Positions 25,163 to 33,825 of a stretch of 64,000 nt of DNA are shown here, one piece after another. A program made the position numbers and the translations under genes. Origin of the DNA: Candidatus Sulfotelmatobacter sp. GTDB taxonomy: Bacteria; Acidobacteriota; Terriglobia; Terriglobales; Acidobacteriaceae. The first letter of the stretch is position 1; each line of letters begins with the position of its first letter. The notes beneath the pieces were generated by a model that saw only the letters and a list, made by a program, of their open reading frames with translations, had not been told where the DNA came from and made no database searches. The DNA lies in NCBI GenBank assembly GCA_030041475.1, contig JASHNU010000040.1, forward strand, positions 1-64,000, in the 5' to 3' direction.

Positions 25163-26752
25163 TCAGGTCATCCGATCTGCCAGATCATCTATCTGCCAGA
25201 TCGTGTCAAGCACTGTGCCGTCCACCCACTTGACGACAGCGACCGGTCGATCGGTGTGAGTGGGTCTCGCTGGCTTACCGCCGCAGATGCGCTCGACTTC
25301 GTCTTTGATCTCCCGCAGCGGGCGGATCGGGAGTTTTGAGTTTCGGACGGCATCGATGAGATCCTGCCTTCGCGGGTTGATAGCAATGCCGCGCTCGGTC
25401 GCGATGACGTCAATCAACTCACCCGGACCACAGAGGGTCGTGACCTCGTCCACGATAACCGGGATGCGGTCGCGGAACGAAGGAACCGCCAGAATTGTGC
25501 ACCCGGCAGCCAGACAGTTCTGCCATCCTCCGATTCCGTGCAGAAGGCGCCCGTCGGAGTGCGTGACCACGTTGGCGTTGAAGTCCACGTCGACCTCTGT
25601 CGCGCCTAAAACGACAGCATCCACCATAGAGGCGAAATTGCCCTTGCCGTGGTAGTTGTAGGACGTGAAGGGAGAAGTCGCCACATGGCGTGGATTGTTC
25701 GCGATGGATCGCACCCCGTCGAGATCGAAGGTTTGCCCGTCGAGAATGCAGTCAGTCAGGCCTTCTTCCAGCAGTTCGACCAGATATTTTGTGGAGCCGC
25801 CGCGGACAAAGTGCGCTCGTATGCCGGACTCTCGCATCATCCGCTTGAGATAGCTGACAAAGGCCAGCGCAATTCCCCCAGCTCCGGCCTGGAAGGAAAA
25901 ACCGTTGCGCATGATCCCGGCATCTCTGAGGAAAAAGGCGACAAACTCGGCGATGCGAAGGCGGTCCGGCGAGCGCGTGATTTGCGTTGTGCCGGAAACG
26001 ATTTTCGTGGGGTCTCCGATGGCATCTACTTCCACAACGCAGTCCACGTTGTTGCCCTGAATTTGCCAGGGAATACACGGGAAGGGTACGAGGTTGTCGG
26101 TAACGACAATCACGTGGTCGGCGTAGATGGAATCCGCCAGCGCAAAGCCAAGCGAGCCGCACGCGGATTTTCCATGAGATCCGTCACAGTTGCCGAATGG
26201 GTCAGCGGTCGGCGCCGCGATGACTGCAATGTCGATGTGAACCTCGCCGTCCTGGATTGCCTGCCAGCGGCCGCCGTGGGAGCGCAGAACGCCCATGCCT
26301 CGCATTTTGCCCTGCGTGCAGTAATCGCCGAGCGGTCCGTTCATGCTGCCTTCGATGTGATCGATCACCCCGGCTTCCATCAGTTCGATCGCGCCCTGCT
26401 GGGAGGGAAAGGACGCACTGGGAAACCACATCAGGTCCTTCACACCGATGCGGGAAGCGGCCTCCAGAGCCATAAGCGCAACACGATCGCCGTCGCGCAA
26501 GTGATGATGCGACGAGAGGACCATGCCATCGCGCAGGCCGCATTTCCGCAGAGCCGTTTCAAGATCGGCCACTCTCTTGTCGCCGTTCGCTGGATAGTCG
26601 GCGATTATGCTGATTGGCGGGGCTGCTTTTCGTCCGCTCGGACGATATTTGCCTACGCCGAGGTAGGGCGTTTGTGAACGGCCGTTCACCCGATTCGGCA
26701 CCATGCGCCCGGCTGCGTTCTGAAGCATCTCGGTCTTGGTCAGAGTTGGCAT
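25163..26752 (-). CDS. citF: Citrate lyase alpha subunit-like CoA/ACP transferase
   Basis: CitF-type proteins transfer the acyl carrier between acetate and citrate and belong to the CoA-transferase superfamily. The 529 residues align in order with CitF: MVPNRVNGR near the N-terminus, ISIIADYPANGDKRVADL-type sequence not shown in full, DGMVLSSHHHLRDGD, GHGK-like glycine loops, and VTERGIAINPRR-type C-terminus (VIATERGIAINPRRQDLIDA). It is the last gene of the seven-gene operon, 45 bases after the CitD-CitE fusion. In normal citrate lyase it works with CitD and CitE; whether the substrate here is citrate is uncertain because the other genes of the operon are foreign to citrate fermentation. Confidence 0.85.
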   Translation of the reverse strand: MPTLTKTEMLQNAAGRMVPNRVNGRSQTPYLGVGKYRPSGRKAAPPISIIADYPANGDKRVADLETALRKCGLRDGMVLSSHHHLRDGDRVALMALEAASRIGVKDLMWFPSASFPSQQGAIELMEAGVIDHIEGSMNGPLGDYCTQGKMRGMGVLRSHGGRWQAIQDGEVHIDIAVIAAPTADPFGNCDGSHGKSACGSLGFALADSIYADHVIVVTDNLVPFPCIPWQIQGNNVDCVVEVDAIGDPTKIVSGTTQITRSPDRLRIAEFVAFFLRDAGIMRNGFSFQAGAGGIALAFVSYLKRMMRESGIRAHFVRGGSTKYLVELLEEGLTDCILDGQTFDLDGVRSIANNPRHVATSPFTSYNYHGKGNFASMVDAVVLGATEVDVDFNANVVTHSDGRLLHGIGGWQNCLAAGCTILAVPSFRDRIPVIVDEVTTLCGPGELIDVIATERGIAINPRRQDLIDAVRNSKLPIRPLREIKDEVERICGGKPARPTHTDRPVAVVKWVDGTVLDTIWQIDDLADRMT

Positions 26753-26797
26753 CGACGATTCGGCCTCTTCACTTCTTATCTCTTCAAGCCAGTCCCT

Positions 26798-28027
26798 TTA
26801 CTTCTTGTCTTTTGACTCCAGCAATCCCATCTCCTGCGCTCGTGCCATCAACTTTAGTGCACGATGTACAACAGGAGGGTCAATCATCTTCGACCCCAGG
26901 CTCACCACACCCAAGCCCTTCGTCTGCGCCTCGTCGTAGGCGGCGACAATCTTTCTGGCTTTCTCGAGCTCTGCGGCAGTGGGCGCGAAAGCCTCATGAA
27001 TCACGCGAATCTGGAGGGGGTGAACACAGCCCATGCCTTCAAATCCCATGGCGCGGGAGTTCTGTCCCCATGCACGCAGGCCCTCCATGTCGCCGACATC
27101 GCCGAAAACAGAATCGATTGCTTGCACGCCGGCGGCGCGAGCCGCGTTCACAACGCGCTGGCGGGCATAGAGGGTTTCCGCCCCAGTTGAGGTTTTAACG
27201 ACGCCGAGATCAGCCGTGTAATCTTCCAGCCCGATCGTGAGGGCGACGATATTGGCGCTGGCCCTGGCGATGGAGAATGCGTTCTCGATACCGAGCGCCG
27301 ACTCCAGAATCGGCATGAGCCAGACTGTACGATCGATTCCGTAATTCTCTTTGATAGTGGCGATACGAACATCGGCCTCAACGATCTGCTCCGGAGTTTC
27401 GACTTTCGGAAGAAGAATTAAGTCCGGCAATTCGGGGACCATTTCATTCAGATCCTCCAACCCCAGCGGAGGCTGATTGATGCGCACCATGCGCTCGCAG
27501 TCGAGGAAGTCCACGGCTCGCAGGGCGTTCCGTACCAGAAGCCGCGCAGCATCCTTTTCGCTGGGATGCACGGAGTCTTCCAGGTCGAGAATGATGGCAT
27601 CGGCTCCATGCAGGGCAGCGTTGATGAAGTACTTCGGCTCGCTGCCTGGAACGTACAACCGGGAACGTCGCAGACGATCGCGAGCGGAGACGGGTCGCAG
27701 GGCAACCTGATCTGGCAGAACGCGCGTGCCTTGCCCTAACCCGGCCTGCCGCACAGCCGCTTCGATGCGGGCAGCAATTACAAACGGCAGCGCACCCTCA
27801 TCGTGAACCTGCACTCGCGCATGGCGCACTCCCAGTGCTTCGAGCACATCTTCGGTCTGCCTTTGAATCGATTCTCCGTAATAAGGTTTCACCCGCGATT
27901 CGAGCTCGATTTCAATTCCGCCCCGATCGCGCGGTTCGACCCTCACGTGCAGATCGGAACGGATTTCTGCACCGCAGTGCCCTGCCTCGCCTGTGCGTCT
28001 CGCCGCGACCTCAGTTGTGCCGCTCAT
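26798..28027 (-). CDS. CitD-CitE fusion: citrate lyase carrier domain joined to HpcH/HpaI-type lyase
   Basis: A 409-residue fusion. Residues 1-100 resemble the citrate lyase acyl-carrier protein CitD (EIELESRVKPYYGESIQRQ, VQVHDEGALPFVIAARIEAA). Residues about 130-409 are a CitE/HpcH-type aldolase barrel (SRLYVPGSEPKYFINAALHG, ADAIILDLEDSVHPSEKDAA, ending near GMGCVHPLQIRVIHEAF). CitE cleaves citryl-thioesters to oxaloacetate and acetyl-thioester; relatives cleave citramalyl- or malyl-CoA. In Klebsiella CitD the prosthetic group sits on the first Ser of a SSD motif; here the aligned residues 23-25 are RSD. The ATG overlaps the upstream gene's stop as ATGA, showing coupling. The fusion keeps carrier and lyase in equal amounts. 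Confidence 0.85.
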   Translation of the reverse strand: MSGTTEVAARRTGEAGHCGAEIRSDLHVRVEPRDRGGIEIELESRVKPYYGESIQRQTEDVLEALGVRHARVQVHDEGALPFVIAARIEAAVRQAGLGQGTRVLPDQVALRPVSARDRLRRSRLYVPGSEPKYFINAALHGADAIILDLEDSVHPSEKDAARLLVRNALRAVDFLDCERMVRINQPPLGLEDLNEMVPELPDLILLPKVETPEQIVEADVRIATIKENYGIDRTVWLMPILESALGIENAFSIARASANIVALTIGLEDYTADLGVVKTSTGAETLYARQRVVNAARAAGVQAIDSVFGDVGDMEGLRAWGQNSRAMGFEGMGCVHPLQIRVIHEAFAPTAAELEKARKIVAAYDEAQTKGLGVVSLGSKMIDPPVVHRALKLMARAQEMGLLESKDKK

Positions 28028-28500
28028 GGCTCCGATTCCCGTGTGTCGAAGATAGCGATCGCCTCTTCCGATCGCACATCTTTTGCAACCCATTCCTCGT
28101 CGGGCCTGACAGTGTGGAAACGAACCGTGCACGAGGTACCGTCAAACGAGACGATGATTCGAAAATACTTCGTACCATGCAGGTGGGAAAGTTTGGCTTT
28201 GAGTAGCTGCGCCAGGGCAAGGCCGCGGCCAAGCATTTCCAGGGGAGGAAGGCCGCCATTCTCCAAGTAATCTTCGACGCGAATCAAATTTACGAAGCAC
28301 TCGAAAGCGGTGCGATCGGGAAAGTCCATCCGCTGAACGGGCACCGCTTGCTTCAGTGCCGACAGGAACACGCACTGTTCCTCTTCCACGAAGCCTGCGT
28401 CCACGAGCGCCAGCAGTTCTTGCGGCAGGGCCTGAGGATCGTCAAGGTTGTCTTCGCGAATCTCTTCGTAAAGAACGTCCATTTGCTGGTTTGTCTTCAC
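28024..28500 (-). CDS. Unrecognised 158-residue protein within the citrate-lyase-like operon
   Basis: I do not recognise this family. The protein is acidic and mixed helical/strand, with DALPQELLALVDAGF-like helices, FECFVNLIRVEDYLENGGLP in the middle and a C-terminal strand pair around KYFRIIVSFDGTSCTVRFH and VAKDVRSEEAIAIFDT. No signal peptide, membrane segment or metal motif is seen. The start is taken as the GTG at 28500, which overlaps the dehydrogenase stop as GTGA; an ATG six codons later (28482) is the alternative. Its stop overlaps the CitD-CitE start as ATGA. Being coupled on both sides points to a part in the same pathway or complex, perhaps as an assembly factor or small subunit (inference). 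Confidence 0.75.
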   Translation of the reverse strand: MKTNQQMDVLYEEIREDNLDDPQALPQELLALVDAGFVEEEQCVFLSALKQAVPVQRMDFPDRTAFECFVNLIRVEDYLENGGLPPLEMLGRGLALAQLLKAKLSHLHGTKYFRIIVSFDGTSCTVRFHTVRPDEEWVAKDVRSEEAIAIFDTRESEP

Positions 28501-29729
28501 ACCGACGTCACCATGGAGCCCGCATAGTCTATCTCTCTCTCCGTTTGCAACTTGTCGAGGACGGCGTCCGTCATCTGAGTCGTGCTGGCCGCGCCCTGGC
28601 TGATGGCTTTTGGGCCGCCCGGAATTCGCATCATGTCGTAGGTTCGAACCTGCCCTTCTTTCACCACGGCCGCGATCGCATTGCGAATGCGGGTGGCTTT
28701 CGTGGTTTCGCCAACATGGTCGAGCAGCATGGCGGCGGACAAGAACATGGCAATCGGATTCACGATCGGAGGGTCCAGTTCCGCGTACTTGGGGGCTGAG
28801 CCGTGGGTCGGCTCGAAAACTGCAACCTCGTCGCCGATGTTGCCGGACGCCGCAAAACCCAGACCACCAACCAGGCCTGCAAAAGCATCCGAAATCACAT
28901 CTCCAAACAGATTCGATGCCACCACCACTCCGTAATCCTCGGGATTCTTGGTCAGCCACATGGTTTGCGCGTCAATATTCGTAGACCAAAGTGCAATCCC
29001 GGGATATTCCTTGGACACCGCTTTGGCTTCGTCCTCCATCAGGCCTGAGGTTTCACGCAGGACATTAGGCTTCTCGCAAATCGTCACGGACTTGTAACCA
29101 TATTTCTTCGCCCAGTCGAACGCCGCGTTGCAGATCTTGCGGGCTGCGGCTCGAGTGATGATGCGCACGGAAATCGCAAGGTCCGGCCCGGGCACAGATG
29201 TGAATGGTTTGAACTTGGAATGCGTGGCCAGGGCCGCACGAACTTGCTCGGGCGGATTCGTCCACTCCACTCCGGCGTACAGGCCTTCGGTGTTCTGACG
29301 AAACGCCACCACGTTGACGAACGGCTCTTCGTATCCACCACTCGGCTTCTTGCGGATAAAGTTCAACGGATTGCCAGGGAAAGAAATGCAGGGCCGGATG
29401 CAAGTATCCAGGTTGAATCGCTGCCGCATGGTCACGATCGGGCTGAAGTACGAATATCCCTTCCCTCTCAGTTCCGGGTTCAACTCCGCTTCCGCCTCTT
29501 TCTTCGGCTTGGATGTAATAGCGCCGAACAATCCCAGCTTATGCTTCGCCAACAGATCGACCGTCGGTTGCGGCAGCGCAATGCCCTGGCGGCGCCAGCA
29601 ATCCCACCCGATATCGGCGTGAATGTATTCCGCGTCGAAGCCAACGGCTTCGAGAAGACGCAACGCCTCGGGCAGAACCTGGTTGCCGATTCCATCGCCG
29701 GGCATGGTAACGACTGTGTGCTTCGCCAT
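28497..29729 (-). CDS. Isocitrate/isopropylmalate dehydrogenase-family enzyme
   Basis: A 410-residue beta-decarboxylating dehydrogenase. These enzymes oxidise a (2R,3S)-hydroxy-diacid with NAD(P)+ and lose CO2. Family features are the N-terminal MPGDGIGNQVLPEAL, the substrate-binding arginines in RQRFNLDTCIRP, NTEGLYAGVE, the metal-binding Asp in NLFGDVISDAFAGLVGGLG, and the nucleotide loop FEPTHGSAPKYA. The GPDLAISVRIITRAAARK segment carries the conserved Arg. GGAG lies seven bases upstream of the ATG, two bases after the aconitase stop. Pairing with an aconitase-like protein suggests isocitrate, homoisocitrate or a methyl analogue as substrate; the sequence does not decide. Confidence 0.85.
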   Translation of the reverse strand: MAKHTVVTMPGDGIGNQVLPEALRLLEAVGFDAEYIHADIGWDCWRRQGIALPQPTVDLLAKHKLGLFGAITSKPKKEAEAELNPELRGKGYSYFSPIVTMRQRFNLDTCIRPCISFPGNPLNFIRKKPSGGYEEPFVNVVAFRQNTEGLYAGVEWTNPPEQVRAALATHSKFKPFTSVPGPDLAISVRIITRAAARKICNAAFDWAKKYGYKSVTICEKPNVLRETSGLMEDEAKAVSKEYPGIALWSTNIDAQTMWLTKNPEDYGVVVASNLFGDVISDAFAGLVGGLGFAASGNIGDEVAVFEPTHGSAPKYAELDPPIVNPIAMFLSAAMLLDHVGETTKATRIRNAIAAVVKEGQVRTYDMMRIPGGPKAISQGAASTTQMTDAVLDKLQTEREIDYAGSMVTSV

Positions 29730-29731
29730 AT

Positions 29732-31720
29732 CTAGTCTCCTGAGGTAACGACCGGTTGCAGGTTGTGCGGTTGAGAAGTCAGTCCCAGTTTTTGCGCGAC
29801 TACGTTTTCTGCGCCCCCGGCAACGACCAGCAATTGCGGAACGCTGCCCAACGCAGGGAATGCAAATCTTTCCCCGTTCCAGACAACCGTGCCGGAAGTG
29901 AAATCGATTGCGATGTGTTCACCGGGAATCACGGTCTTGTCTTTCGCCGCGATTTCTGCCGCAAACTGCCGGCGCAAACGTTCCACCAGCGCCGGAACTT
30001 CAATGCACAGAAATCCGTTGTTGTAGGCGTTGCGCAGGTAGGTCTGCGAAAAGCTGCCGGCGATCACGAGTGGAAAGCCTTTTGCCTTCAAGCAGGTTAC
30101 GGCTTGCTCGCGGCTCGAACCGGTGCCGAAGTTGAATCCGCCCACGATCACGTCCCTGGGGCGTGTGCGAAGGGAGAATTCGGGATCGTAGTTCTGCATG
30201 ACAACCTGCGCCATCATGGCCGGCGTCATGTCATCGCGATAGGTGTAATCTTTGCCATAAATGGCGTCGGTATTCACGTTGTCCTGCGTCATGAAGACAA
30301 GGCGGCCCTCGATCTTTTCCGGAAAGCCGGGCAGAATTTCGACTCGCTCGTGCGGGCGCCCATGTGTCGAAAGCTCGGTGTAGTTGCGCTCGACCGTGCG
30401 CGCAGTCCACTCGCACGGTCCTGCAATGTAGCCTGCTGCTGCCGAGGCCGCAACGACCTCAGGACTGGCGAGATAACACTGCGCGTCACGTGATCCCATC
30501 CGGCCTTTGAAGTTGCGGTTCGTGGCCGAAATGCCGACTTCCCCTTTCTCCAGCAGCCCTGTTCCAAGACCGATGCAGGGCCCGCAACTGGGCGGCAGCG
30601 GGATTGCGCCAGCATCGAGCAGTTGCTGCCATGCGCCTCTGGTTTCCGCTTCCTGCTGCACCCAGGCACTGGCCGCGCCGACGTAAAACTTCACTCCCGG
30701 CGCGATCTTGCGCCCGCGCAGCACCTCTGCCGCGGCTTGCAGGTCGTCCGCCCGCGAGTTCACGCACGAAAGCAGATAGGCTTTCTGGATGGCAATTTTC
30801 TGCTTCTCGATCTCAGCCAGGGAGTGCATGGTCTGCACAGTGTCGGGCCCGGAGACATGCGGCGTGACCTGACTGAGATCCAGCACGATGCGGGCGGCGT
30901 AGTTCGCATCCTCATCGGGGCGCGGCGGATCGGTTGTCCACCGGTAGAAGTCGCGCTCGCTGAATCGTTCTACACCCAGCGCGAGCAATCGCTCGTGCAT
31001 CTCCCGCAGATAATCGATCGTCACCTCGTCCACGGGAAACCAAGCAACAATCGGTCCCCATTCGGTACTCATGTTAGAGATTGAGAAGCGTGCATCCATC
31101 GAAAGGCTGGCCACGCCCGGGCCACAAAACTCAACGGCCGCGTTCAGAACTTCGTCGTGGTTGTATAGCCCGCAAAGCGTGATGATCACATCCTTGCCGG
31201 TCACGCCCTCGGGCAGCTTACCCTCCAGCACCGCCTGCACCGTCCGCGGAATCTGCCACCAGAACTCACCGGTGGCCCAAACGGCAGCCGCATCGGTACG
31301 CACAATCGGAGTCCCGATGGCGCCCAGGGCTCCGTACATGTTCGAGTGTGAATCGGAGGCAACCACGAACGACCCCGGCAGCACGTATCCGCGCTCGACC
31401 ATAATCTGGTGGCCGATGCCCGAACCGGCGGGGTAGAAATCCACTCCGTGCTCGCGGGCAAAAGCCTCGATCGAGCGATACTTCTTCACGTTGGCCTCGT
31501 CGTGATTCTGAATGTCGTGATCGAGCGCGAAAATCAGCTGTCGGGGCTCGTGAATCTTGCGCGCGCCGATGGCTTTGAATTTGCTCATCACCGCCGAGGT
31601 GTTGTCATGCGTCATGACATGAAACGGCCGGATGGAAAGAAAGTCGCCCGGGCGCAACGGCCGGTCCGGGCCTTCGGTCATGTGAGCTTGCGCAATTTTT
31701 TCAACGATTGTCTGCGGCAT
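29732..31720 (-). CDS. Aconitase/homoaconitase-family hydro-lyase with fused swivel domain
   Basis: A 662-residue single-chain enzyme that isomerises a hydroxy-tricarboxylate by dehydration and rehydration. The 4Fe-4S ligands are Cys319 (LLSCVNSR) and Cys379/Cys382 (PPSCGPCIG). The substrate loop DSHSNMYGALGA and the swivel-domain NFGTGSSREQA with its active-site Arg are intact. Its length, with both LeuC- and LeuD-like parts in one chain, resembles homoaconitase and the shorter AcnA-like enzymes. GGAG is eight bases upstream of the ATG. It is encoded two bases ahead of the dehydrogenase, so the two act in sequence: isomerise, then oxidatively decarboxylate. Confidence 0.88.
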   Translation of the reverse strand: MPQTIVEKIAQAHMTEGPDRPLRPGDFLSIRPFHVMTHDNTSAVMSKFKAIGARKIHEPRQLIFALDHDIQNHDEANVKKYRSIEAFAREHGVDFYPAGSGIGHQIMVERGYVLPGSFVVASDSHSNMYGALGAIGTPIVRTDAAAVWATGEFWWQIPRTVQAVLEGKLPEGVTGKDVIITLCGLYNHDEVLNAAVEFCGPGVASLSMDARFSISNMSTEWGPIVAWFPVDEVTIDYLREMHERLLALGVERFSERDFYRWTTDPPRPDEDANYAARIVLDLSQVTPHVSGPDTVQTMHSLAEIEKQKIAIQKAYLLSCVNSRADDLQAAAEVLRGRKIAPGVKFYVGAASAWVQQEAETRGAWQQLLDAGAIPLPPSCGPCIGLGTGLLEKGEVGISATNRNFKGRMGSRDAQCYLASPEVVAASAAAGYIAGPCEWTARTVERNYTELSTHGRPHERVEILPGFPEKIEGRLVFMTQDNVNTDAIYGKDYTYRDDMTPAMMAQVVMQNYDPEFSLRTRPRDVIVGGFNFGTGSSREQAVTCLKAKGFPLVIAGSFSQTYLRNAYNNGFLCIEVPALVERLRRQFAAEIAAKDKTVIPGEHIAIDFTSGTVVWNGERFAFPALGSVPQLLVVAGGAENVVAQKLGLTSQPHNLQPVVTSGD

Positions 31721-31759
31721 AACGACTCTCCGAAGTAGTGGGCGCCTGCGGCGAAGACC

Positions 31760-33250
31760 TCAGGCGAGTACTGGTTTTGGGCGTTTCTGACTCTTCGCGC
31801 GCGAGCGCACGTTCTTTCTGTCCTTGCTCTTGGGGCGGCGGGCAGCTTGAACATCCGCTTCCATCAGCGCCATTAGTTCCGTTACCGAGCCAACGCGCTC
31901 CAGGTTCCACACGGCATCTTTGACTCCCTTTTGCGCAGCCGAGGTCAGCACCCCGTCCGCGAGGGCGGAAAACTTTTCTTCAATCTCCGCATCGGTCAGC
32001 CGATTGCGCGGATCTCCCTTGGGAAAGTCCAATTGCTTGTCGAAACAGCGGCCATCTTTAGTCTTGATCTGCACGATTACCCTCTGTAAAGCAGGAAAGA
32101 CCTTTTCAATCTCTGGATCTGCAACCACCTCCACCTTCCGGAGTTGCTCCCTTACCTTCGGCTCCAGGATGGCTTCGCTGGTGAACTGCGCCGGCGTGAC
32201 TCTGCGGTGTACGAGAGCAGCAGCAATCACGTAGGGCAGAGAGTGGTCGGCGGTCTCCTTGGTATGCGGATCGTATTTGCTCGGGTCCGAGAGAATGTCG
32301 GCAGCGCGGGCCAGGGAGCGAATCTGCACTTTCTCGACGCTGTCGGGATGCAGGTCGTTGGTCTTGACCAGGTCGAGCACCGCGGAGATGGGCGTATGCG
32401 TGAGCGCCTCTGTGGGAAACGCCTTCATTCCGCATTGAGTGATGCGCCAGGATTCGCCGAGGCCTGCTGTAAGCAGGTCGAGTTTCCAGTCCGGGCCAAA
32501 GACATGCGTTAGTCCCTCTTTGCCGTCAATGATGTGCTCCGGGCCCGTATAGCCTTTCTGCGCCAGTAGAGCCGCAAGCACACCGCTCTGCGTTGCCATG
32601 GGATCGACGGTGTTCTTCATCATGGTGAGCTTGCCCGCGGTCACCGCGCCCAACGTGCAATGGCGACTCGCCGAGATTCCGATGGCGTGCTGAATCTGCT
32701 CCCACGGGAGGTGCAGCGCCCTTCCGGCAACGATCGGTGAAACAAACGCGGTCAGCGTGGCGTGATGCCAGCCGCGCTCGCGAACTCCGGGAAATGCCGC
32801 CTCGCAGAAGCGCATCTCGAATTCGTGGCCGAGCACGAGGCCGACGATCAGTTCCCGGCCATCGCTCGCCGCGCGTTCACAGCACGCGAGAGCGGCAGAA
32901 AAAATGTCCGAAGGATGGCAGGGATCCTGTTTCCAATAAATGTCGTTGTAGTCCATGCACCGAATCATCAGCGCATTGGCCAGAGACGCAGAGACCGGGT
33001 CGACCCGCTCGCCGGTGCCGATGACAGTCGCAGGCCCTGACGCGGCAATCTCGTCCAGCACGTCCAACGCAATCTTTACATCGTGTTGCTGGTAGCCACC
33101 CAGCGCGCAACCGAGCGAGTCGAGCAGAAATCGTTTCGCCTGATAGACAGCCTCTTTCGAGAGATGCTCAACCCGCAAATCGGCCGCCCAGCGTGCCATC
33201 GTGGCGCTCACGGTCTCCCTGGCAGGAGCCACCGGGTTTGTGTTGGTCAC
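31760..33250 (-). CDS. MmgE/PrpD-family protein (methylcitrate dehydratase type)
   Basis: A 496-residue protein of the MmgE/PrpD family, whose characterised members dehydrate 2-methylcitrate or isomerise aconitate or iminodisuccinate-type acids. Visible family segments are RFLLDSLGCALGGY, ANALMIRCMDYNDIYWKQDPCHPSD (shown in parts), AIGISASRHCTLGAVTAGKL and the helical C-terminus with QIKTKDGRCFDKQLDFPKGD. The GTG at 33250 is chosen because AAGGAG lies seven bases upstream; a longer frame would overlap the HD gene and add arginine-rich residues. The C-terminal 25 residues are unusually basic (RRPKSKDRKNVRSRAKSQKR), a tail I would not expect in the family. Confidence 0.85.
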   Translation of the reverse strand: MTNTNPVAPARETVSATMARWAADLRVEHLSKEAVYQAKRFLLDSLGCALGGYQQHDVKIALDVLDEIAASGPATVIGTGERVDPVSASLANALMIRCMDYNDIYWKQDPCHPSDIFSAALACCERAASDGRELIVGLVLGHEFEMRFCEAAFPGVRERGWHHATLTAFVSPIVAGRALHLPWEQIQHAIGISASRHCTLGAVTAGKLTMMKNTVDPMATQSGVLAALLAQKGYTGPEHIIDGKEGLTHVFGPDWKLDLLTAGLGESWRITQCGMKAFPTEALTHTPISAVLDLVKTNDLHPDSVEKVQIRSLARAADILSDPSKYDPHTKETADHSLPYVIAAALVHRRVTPAQFTSEAILEPKVREQLRKVEVVADPEIEKVFPALQRVIVQIKTKDGRCFDKQLDFPKGDPRNRLTDAEIEEKFSALADGVLTSAAQKGVKDAVWNLERVGSVTELMALMEADVQAARRPKSKDRKNVRSRAKSQKRPKPVLA

Positions 33251-33267
33251 GGAAAATCTCCTTCGTT

Positions 33268-33825
33268 TCAACTCATTTTGATGTTCTTCGGATTCTTGAA
33301 GGGCAAGAAAGCCATAAAGTCGGCGTGATGGACGATGAAAGCCTCGGTGGTCCGCCTGACCAGGTCGCCCTCGGCCGCATGCGCAGCGATGATGTGGCAA
33401 ACCGCGTCGGGGACCCCGCACTCCATCGCCAGAGCTACGCCGGTGAAAGGGTGGCGCAAAGCCTCGCCCCGCTCACTCTGGCGGCTTTTTCCGTCCGGAC
33501 CGAGTTCGTATTCCAGCAGCTTGCCAACGTCGGCCAGAATGGCCCCCGCGATGACCGTATCCGTGTCGATCGGCAACGCGCGCCCCATGAATGCCTGCAT
33601 TGCCTTGGCGCTTTCGCGGGCGATGTGCACCACGCAACGCTTGTGTTCCATGAACGTGATGGGGCAGTTCGGCACCAGCAGCGTGAACGGGATCTGGTTC
33701 AGATCCTCAGGCTTTAGGGGACTGCGCTCGAATGCTTTGACCCATGTCTCGGTAACTTGTTCTCGTAATTGCAGATTGCTGATCCACGCGATCTCCGGCC
33801 AAAGCTTCTGGATGGCATCTCGCAT
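33268..33825 (-). CDS. HD-superfamily protein with altered HD motif
   Basis: A 185-residue protein with the helical layout of HD phosphohydrolases: EHKRCVVHIARESA (first His), GAILADVGKLLEYEL where HD-x-GK is expected, then RHPFTGVALAMECGVPDAVCHIIAAHAAEGD and a final VHHADFMAF. The His of the HD pair is replaced by Ala (ADVGK) while the Asp stays, which may weaken metal binding or change the reaction. It is the first gene of the operon, 17 bases before MmgE/PrpD. The ATG at 33825 lacks a strong Shine-Dalgarno sequence; an upstream TTG is possible. A regulatory, nucleotide-hydrolysing or purely structural role cannot be told apart. Confidence 0.7.
   Translation of the reverse strand: MRDAIQKLWPEIAWISNLQLREQVTETWVKAFERSPLKPEDLNQIPFTLLVPNCPITFMEHKRCVVHIARESAKAMQAFMGRALPIDTDTVIAGAILADVGKLLEYELGPDGKSRQSERGEALRHPFTGVALAMECGVPDAVCHIIAAHAAEGDLVRRTTEAFIVHHADFMAFLPFKNPKNIKMS

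Follow-up and report, generated by a model that had tools for sequence, protein, structure and literature searches.

A conserved six-gene module joining a homoaconitase-type hydratase to an apparently carrier-free citrate-lyase-family enzyme in Acidobacteriota and other phyla

Organization of the operon

We analysed a window of 64 kb (positions 1 to 64,000 of contig JASHNU010000040.1) from the Candidatus Sulfotelmatobacter sp. assembly GCA_030041475.1, a genome of 4.63 Mb in 112 contigs that is 99.56% complete, and focused on an operon in which PrpD-, aconitase- and isocitrate dehydrogenase-family genes stand together with homologues of citrate lyase subunits. By combining open reading frame calls with Pfam and NCBIfam scans of the window, we found seven frames, all on the minus strand and running from 33825 to 25163, which in operon order are spaced by gaps of 17, 39 and 2 bases, two overlaps of 4 bases each and a gap of 45 bases. 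This layout of one strand, short gaps and 4-base overlaps had been given in a preliminary description made from the sequence alone, and its family assignments agree with the Pfam matches (PrpD, Aconitase, Iso_dh, ACP plus HpcH_HpaI, and CitF). The genes are as follows, with model confidence given as the predicted local distance difference test (pLDDT).

33268..33825, minus strand: HD-domain protein of 185 amino acids, a module member; narrow pass on TIGR00277 (HDIG), model pLDDT 92.9
31760..33250, minus strand: MmgE/PrpD-family dehydratase of 496 amino acids, GTG start; PF03972 at 240 bits, PF19305 at 153 bits
29732..31720, minus strand: aconitase-family hydratase of LYS4 (homoaconitase) type, 662 amino acids; TIGR00139 at 744.8 bits, cut-off 529.9
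28497..29729, minus strand: isocitrate/isopropylmalate-family dehydrogenase of 410 amino acids with an SPIV motif; PF00180 at 245 bits
28024..28500, minus strand: protein of 158 amino acids, GTG start; no Pfam or NCBIfam match, model pLDDT 46.9
26798..28027, minus strand: CitD-CitE fusion of 409 amino acids; PF06857 (ACP) at 74 bits, PF03328 (HpcH_HpaI) at 186 bits
25163..26752, minus strand: CitF-type transferase of 529 amino acids from a divergent multi-phylum clade; PF04223 at 425.9 bits

An AAGGAG site precedes the PrpD GTG start at 33250, and this protein is the sole PF03972 match in the window genome. The promoter and terminator scan was uninformative, with 1 promoter-like and 9 terminator-like sites compared with 2.4 and 8.0 in shuffled sequences.

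Conservation and spread of the six-gene module

Loci compared with the window are labelled L### and genomes G###, the window genome being G000. Gene-set counts were taken over 110 of 117 sequences, window included, after leaving out four duplicates (L034, L041, L052 and L058) and, mistaken for duplicates, two CitDE-CitF loci (L044 and L115; CitDE denotes the CitD-CitE fusion) and one Acn-CitDE-CitF locus (L110; Acn, aconitase-family). These 110 include three classical citrate lyase loci, three loci of ~32% identity and many short contigs, so that gene absences are often mere cut-offs, and their genes were called by a simple open-frame method in which some frames were mis-chosen. Near CitF we found CitDE in 93 loci, an aconitase-family gene in 49, HD and dehydrogenase genes in 42 each and PrpD in 33; all six were present in 25. 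Sixteen loci have the order seen in the window; they come from Acidobacteriota and from a single record each of Gemmatimonadota and Bacteroidetes, and they include L072, whose CitDE is in two pieces. Permuted orders, found in other phyla, occur as dehydrogenase-HD-Acn-PrpD-CitDE-CitF in six loci and as CitDE-CitF-HD-Acn-dehydrogenase-PrpD in one. Judged by record titles, the 25 six-gene loci come from Acidobacteriota, Gemmatimonadota (L081), Planctomycetota (L090), Neomarinimicrobiota (L119), Chloroflexota (L138) and Bacteroidetes/Ignavibacteria-type records (L085, L096, L108, L114, L125 and L126), with one further locus titled 'Bacterium BMS3Abin04' (L097). Among non-module neighbours the most widespread cluster is found in 16 loci and all others in at most 8.

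The six-gene set is conserved beyond chance, recurring in several phyla in permuted order, and the search for the same gene order in other genomes that the preliminary description had proposed thus finds it well outside this genome. The seven-gene unit in that description stands as a layout only: the gene for the 158-amino-acid protein was found in just two of the 110 loci, the window (28024-28500) and L068 (8253-8732), in both between the dehydrogenase and CitDE and with products 68% identical, and we therefore take the unit to be six genes, not seven. The 158-amino-acid protein is apparently a lineage-specific passenger. In five genomes examined because their CitDE-CitF locus has no dehydrogenase (G045, G081, G294, G016 and G248), an SPIV-type dehydrogenase lies elsewhere in every case, in G016 within a second cluster of HD-HacA-HacB-dehydrogenase. 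An aconitase-family fusion and a HacA/HacB-type pair replace the PrpD and LYS4-type genes in L040, L043, L087 and L089, of which the NCBIfam scan covered L040.

To estimate the spread within the phylum, CitF was searched in 297 Acidobacteriota genomes, of which 55 gave a match: 43 at 48% identity or more (module-type CitF, including the contig-end fragments G255, G100 and G058), 3 at 40–41% and 9 below 40%. A CitF profile scan of genome contigs confirmed at least 550 relatives, the best 80 of which, in other genomes, are 64–88% identical. Within these best 80, the nearest named records are Terriglobia/Acidobacteria at 83–88% identity, and the titles name Acidobacteria, Gemmatimonadota, Bacteroidetes, Ignavibacteria, Chlorobiota, KSB1, WOR-3, Planctomycetota, Krumholzibacteria, Zixibacteria, Neomarinimicrobiota, Cloacimonadota and Chloroflexota, among others.

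Two side observations concern these loci. A CitF-like gene that is 53–57% identical stands without a nearby CitDE in L047, L055, L062 and L064, where it adjoins UPF0102, YchF GTPase and ferredoxin genes (identified from one scanned protein each plus cluster membership). In six Ignavibacteria/Melioribacter-type loci (L096, L097, L108, L126, L132 and L106), genes of the 23S rRNA intervening-sequence family lie between module genes, twice in L097 and L126; PF05635 was confirmed for L126 and L132, and the others were assigned by cluster.

A lyase apparently without the carrier system of citrate lyase

Classical citrate lyase requires CitC, CitX and CitG. None of citC, citX and citG was found in the 64-kb window, which bears out their reported lack at the operon, and the possibility that the maturation genes lie elsewhere was pursued for CitX and CitG, neither of which was found in the whole window genome. 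CitC is present in the three classical loci but was found neither in the window nor in the module loci compared with it, no genome-wide search for it having been made. The E. coli CitC, CitX and CitG queries matched only these classical loci (L048, L056 and L057) among the 117 sequences. Across the 297 Acidobacteriota genomes, CitG is present in 19, and its distribution follows the type of CitF: none of the 43 genomes carrying module-type CitF has it, compared with all three genomes with the classical 40–41% CitF (G097, G193 and G292) and four of the nine with a match below 40% (G113, G250, G258 and G274). It was likewise found in none of 47 further genomes chosen from the best 80 CitF loci.

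The carrier protein itself is altered. E. coli CitD reads ESGD at Ser14, which we take to be the carrier attachment site, and the corresponding column in 79 aligned CitDE proteins (the alignment dropped rows L048 and L056, both classical, and the truncated L140) holds Arg in 73, Lys in 3, and Ala, Asn and Ser in 1 each. The window protein has Arg at this position, and the three classical CitD proteins have Ser. The CitE part, which matches PF03328 and scores 276 bits on TIGR01588 (cut-off 443), retains a conserved core that runs across the module proteins and is mostly common to E. coli CitE, and CitF scores 480.9 bits on TIGR01584, below the cut-off of 501.45, compared with 817 for E. coli CitF. 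The lyase thus appears to be free of the phosphoribosyl-dephospho-coenzyme A (CoA) carrier, and the simplest account would be a CoA-dependent pair of CitF transferase and CitE lyase, with CitD as a remnant. That the module is conserved and holds a carrier-free lyase we consider highly probable.

Separately, CitG-family genes adjoin RimK/LysX-like genes in six Acidobacteriota genomes outside the 43 carriers (G011:C19, G039:C176, G113:C198, G153:C8, G169:C6 and G128:C137). These probably belong to another cofactor pathway, and such CitG matches need not signify citrate lyase.

The HD protein has no Pfam match and passes TIGR00277 at 30.9 bits with a cut-off of 27.6. Its signature His is replaced by Ala in the window protein and, over the 38 members aligned, by Ala or Ile in 31; the seven that keep it (L040, L043, L061, L087, L088, L089 and L123) come from loci that have the aconitase-family fusion. 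The replacement may have altered metal binding. The nearest fold to its model is YhaM (Foldseek E 1.2e-4), and the fold matches indicate a generic HD protein only.

Substrate signatures of the hydratase and dehydrogenase

The three full-length LYS4-type hydratases scanned all exceed the homoaconitase cut-off of TIGR00139, those of L114 (844 bits) and L090 (746 bits) as well as that of the window, compared with 95.8 bits for the AcnA of the window genome, and Cys319, Cys379 and Cys382 are conserved at the 97% level in 28 aligned LYS4-type proteins. Alignments after a length filter, which left 33 dehydrogenases (and the 38 HD proteins above), showed SPIV at the substrate helix in all 33 module dehydrogenases. 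Homoisocitrate dehydrogenase of S. pombe (3ty3) reads SSPIVALR at the same helix, whereas the isocitrate dehydrogenase motif is S-x-N-V, with Asn (presumably N115) at the third motif position in the E. coli enzyme. The four other Iso_dh proteins of the window genome read SLNV, SINV, AGLL and EILL. Models of methanogen homoisocitrate dehydrogenase ranked first for the three module dehydrogenases scanned (3/3), below cut-off. Besides the module, the window genome encodes AcnA, an isocitrate dehydrogenase of SLNV type and two members of the citrate synthase family, which makes the module dispensable for its tricarboxylic acid (TCA) cycle.

From these motifs and family scores, we put the chance that the enzymes act on the homocitrate series at about even. 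The wide conservation of the set supports the preliminary proposal of a dedicated pathway in which a tricarboxylate is dehydrated or isomerised, oxidatively decarboxylated and cleaved by a lyase, and its suggestions for the substrate hold in part: homocitrate fits best, methylcitrate fits badly and itaconate has only a weak family resemblance in its favour.

A proposed route from 2-oxoadipate and its alternatives

We propose, as a reading that falls somewhat short of an even chance, that the six genes form a catabolic module linking 2-oxoadipate reversibly to homocitrate, which is then cleaved. The SPIV-type dehydrogenase would convert 2-oxoadipate, CO2 and NAD(P)H reversibly to homoisocitrate, the LYS4-type hydratase would interconvert homoisocitrate and homoaconitate, and PrpD, or a second aconitase-family protein in other loci, would interconvert homoaconitate and homocitrate. 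CitF would then transfer CoA from acetyl-CoA onto homocitrate, and the CitE domain would split homocitryl-CoA into acetyl-CoA and 2-oxoglutarate, giving a net lyase reaction of homocitrate to acetate and 2-oxoglutarate. Such a lyase would be CoA-dependent, with the CitD domain as a structural remnant without prosthetic group, and would draw homocitrate off behind two hydro-lyases. We infer the substrate, the CoA dependence, the direction and the amino-acid origin of 2-oxoadipate from the lines of evidence set out here. Four points favour cleavage over synthesis: the family to which the lyase belongs, the genes nearby, the patchy distribution, and the fact that most carriers lack a lysine pathway of LysX type. 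We give this direction at best an even chance. More tentatively, the module may represent an undescribed multi-phylum route of amino-acid degradation, the upper alpha-aminoadipate pathway reversed, whose last enzyme would be the first of the citrate lyase family to work with CoA and without a carrier.

The neighbouring genes are diverse. Some of them, each found in one locus or a few, are indicative of peptide and amino-acid catabolism. A beta-Ala-His-type dipeptidase lies upstream of CitDE-CitF in L107, where it was confirmed, and likewise, by cluster, in L109, L111 and L122; prolyl oligopeptidase-type and M28 peptidases adjoin the module in L032 and L085, and glutamate formiminotransferase (FTCD) in L078 and L082. 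Butyrate kinase and indolepyruvate ferredoxin oxidoreductase (IorA) are found in L081, and in L161:5333-8959 (G081) the SPIV dehydrogenase is followed, in one apparent operon, by genes for an alanine-dehydrogenase-like protein and a butyryl-CoA:acetate-type CoA-transferase, both below their equivalog cut-offs. Genome-level searches covered the dehydrogenase in 20 genomes, the aconitase family in 14, citrate synthase in 14 and LysA in 20. No convincing LysA was found in 7 of the 12 Acidobacteriota carriers tested (G161, G092, G082, G046, G045, G081 and G070), and an eighth (G263) has it only as an 87-residue fragment. LysX was over cut-off in none of these eight, as expected of amino-acid-dependent bacteria, the rate covering module carriers only. 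A sodium-pump decarboxylase set (an MmdA-like protein below cut-off, a biotin carrier and OAD beta) lies directly upstream of CitDE-CitF in L142:5055-8712, and L141 likewise has genes from these clusters ahead of CitDE; we judged the set a Bacteroidales locality and rejected it as evidence.

Several points weigh against the homocitrate route. Reductive carboxylation of a 2-oxo acid is energetically uphill. The window dehydrogenase is under every NCBIfam equivalog cut-off (AksF2, 267 versus 540; AksF, 249.5 versus 500), and the HacA-type or fusion proteins of L040 and L138 score only 233–301 bits on TIGR00139. Two hydro-lyases are not universal, as L078 and L084 read HD-Acn-dehydrogenase-CitDE-CitF without PrpD in the stretch compared, and the HD protein is unexplained by the proposed pathway. 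The absence of CitG from the module carriers is not significant relative to the whole phylum sample (Fisher p 0.087), so the weight rests on the contrast with the three classical-citF genomes, and the Ser directly after the lost attachment position is kept in 76 of the 79 CitDE proteins, which makes a shifted attachment site conceivable. Lysine 6-transaminase was not associated with module CitF (14/43 versus 69/254, Fisher p 0.47) and none was over cut-off in the window genome; we rejected it as an upstream partner, and lysine as the source of 2-oxoadipate thus stays hypothetical. Finally, the homoaconitase of Methanocaldococcus is reported to perform both steps alone (PMC3556520).

The alternatives differ in how much of this evidence they explain. 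With the ordinary citrate series as substrates, the module could reverse the first third of the TCA cycle: glutamate-derived 2-oxoglutarate would undergo reductive carboxylation to isocitrate, then isomerisation to citrate and cleavage to acetate and oxaloacetate, as a redox-balancing amino-acid fermentation. We regard this reading as unlikely but worth serious consideration. The CitE and CitF parts score highest on citrate lyase models, FTCD among the neighbours yields glutamate, and four genomes of one family (f31; G045, G081, G070 and G091) have just two aconitase-family genes each, in the module arrangement (in G091 on a different contig than CitF; the contig of G070:C1 is also that of L087, whose title is Thermoanaerobaculum aquaticum), with citrate synthase not found in G045 and G081. 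This reading conflicts with the further AcnA, isocitrate dehydrogenase and citrate synthase family genes of the window genome, with the replacement of the isocitrate-motif Asn in all 33 dehydrogenases and with the homoaconitase type of the hydratase; moreover, one aconitase would be enough for citrate, yet the six-gene modules hold two hydro-lyases. It is improbable, in our view, that the lyase still bears a prosthetic group, which a so far unrecognised maturation enzyme, for instance the HD protein, would attach, perhaps to the Ser next to the lost one. The CitD domain is indeed retained with conserved positions, the neighbouring Ser is common and the HD protein is present in 42 of the 110 loci, but only 1 of the 79 proteins has Ser at the known attachment position, the neighbouring Ser is also gone in 3 of 79, and the 158-amino-acid protein is confined to two loci.

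Biosynthesis would run the same chemistry the other way: with CitE/CitF in place of homocitrate synthase, acetyl units and 2-oxoglutarate would yield 2-oxoadipate for the formation of lysine or 2-aminoadipate. The sequence types agree with the alpha-aminoadipate route, and the missing or fragmentary LysA in the carriers named above would suit it, but LysX is over cut-off in only 2 of the 43 module-CitF genomes (G002 and G032), the window genome has LysA (504 bits) and no LysX (none in G000 at E 1e-40), and the module CitF type is accessory (43/297 genomes). With LysX rare among carriers, we rejected lysine biosynthesis as the function and consider this reading as a whole quite improbable. A methylcitrate- or itaconate-like substrate, which the preliminary description had suggested beside homocitrate, seems more improbable still. 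In its favour, the module has a protein of the PrpD family with cis-aconitate decarboxylase among its PDB relatives, and the CitE part also matches RipC; however, PrpD reaches only 69.9 bits on TIGR02330 (2-methylcitrate dehydratase, cut-off 458) and CitE 165 bits on RipC (cut-off 375). 2-Methylisocitrate is a tertiary alcohol that an isocitrate-type dehydrogenase cannot oxidise, and methylcitrate fits badly for this reason and because PrpD is far under the 2-methylcitrate dehydratase cut-offs.

Significance of the module

All enzymes except the 158-amino-acid passenger belong to known families, and we found no description of the six-gene set in the open-access PubMed Central (PMC) literature, subscription journals lying mostly outside that search. 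If the homocitrate route is correct, a whole pathway is concealed under ordinary family names, and citF-like genes filed near citrate lyase do not ferment citrate by the known mechanism; this would reach 43 of 297 Acidobacteriota genomes and the best 80 of at least 550 loci in other genomes. The identity of the substrate would show whether bacteria have a catabolic counterpart to the fungal lysine enzymes, and it could reveal how amino acids of the lysine or glutamate type are degraded by a new end route in soil and sediment bacteria. The carrier-free lyase is directly testable with purified CitDE and CitF.

Comparison with known systems

The Melioribacter genome paper reports a TCA cycle but no citrate lyase of the ATP-dependent kind, and neither homocitrate nor lysine occurs in it as a word (PMC3534657). 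With the methylcitrate cycle (PrpD plus AcnB/AcnD), the module shares a PrpD-family dehydratase and an aconitase-family hydratase, but it has a dehydrogenase in addition and its PrpD is well under the methylcitrate cut-offs. Some module loci have a split HacA/HacB-type hydratase like the homoaconitases of Thermus and methanogens, and methanogen AksF models rank first for the module dehydrogenase, yet the scores are below equivalog cut-offs and the gene partners differ. Citrate lyase (E. coli citCDEFXG, NC_000913.3) resembles the module in having adjacent genes for CitF and CitE homologues and a CitD-like domain, and of 123 columns with a conservation of 98% or more across 93 CitF proteins, E. 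coli CitF agrees at 81 and differs at the other 42. Unlike in citrate lyase, the module CitD is fused to CitE and has lost the attachment Ser, no CitX or CitG was found, and the partners are the HD protein, PrpD, the LYS4-type hydratase and the SPIV dehydrogenase. The fungal alpha-aminoadipate pathway (Lys4 and Lys12) differs from the module, which is a bacterial operon with a lyase and whose 43 Acidobacteriota carriers include only 2 with LysX over cut-off, and is like it in the TIGR00139 match, the SPIV of 3ty3 and the use of two hydro-lyases.

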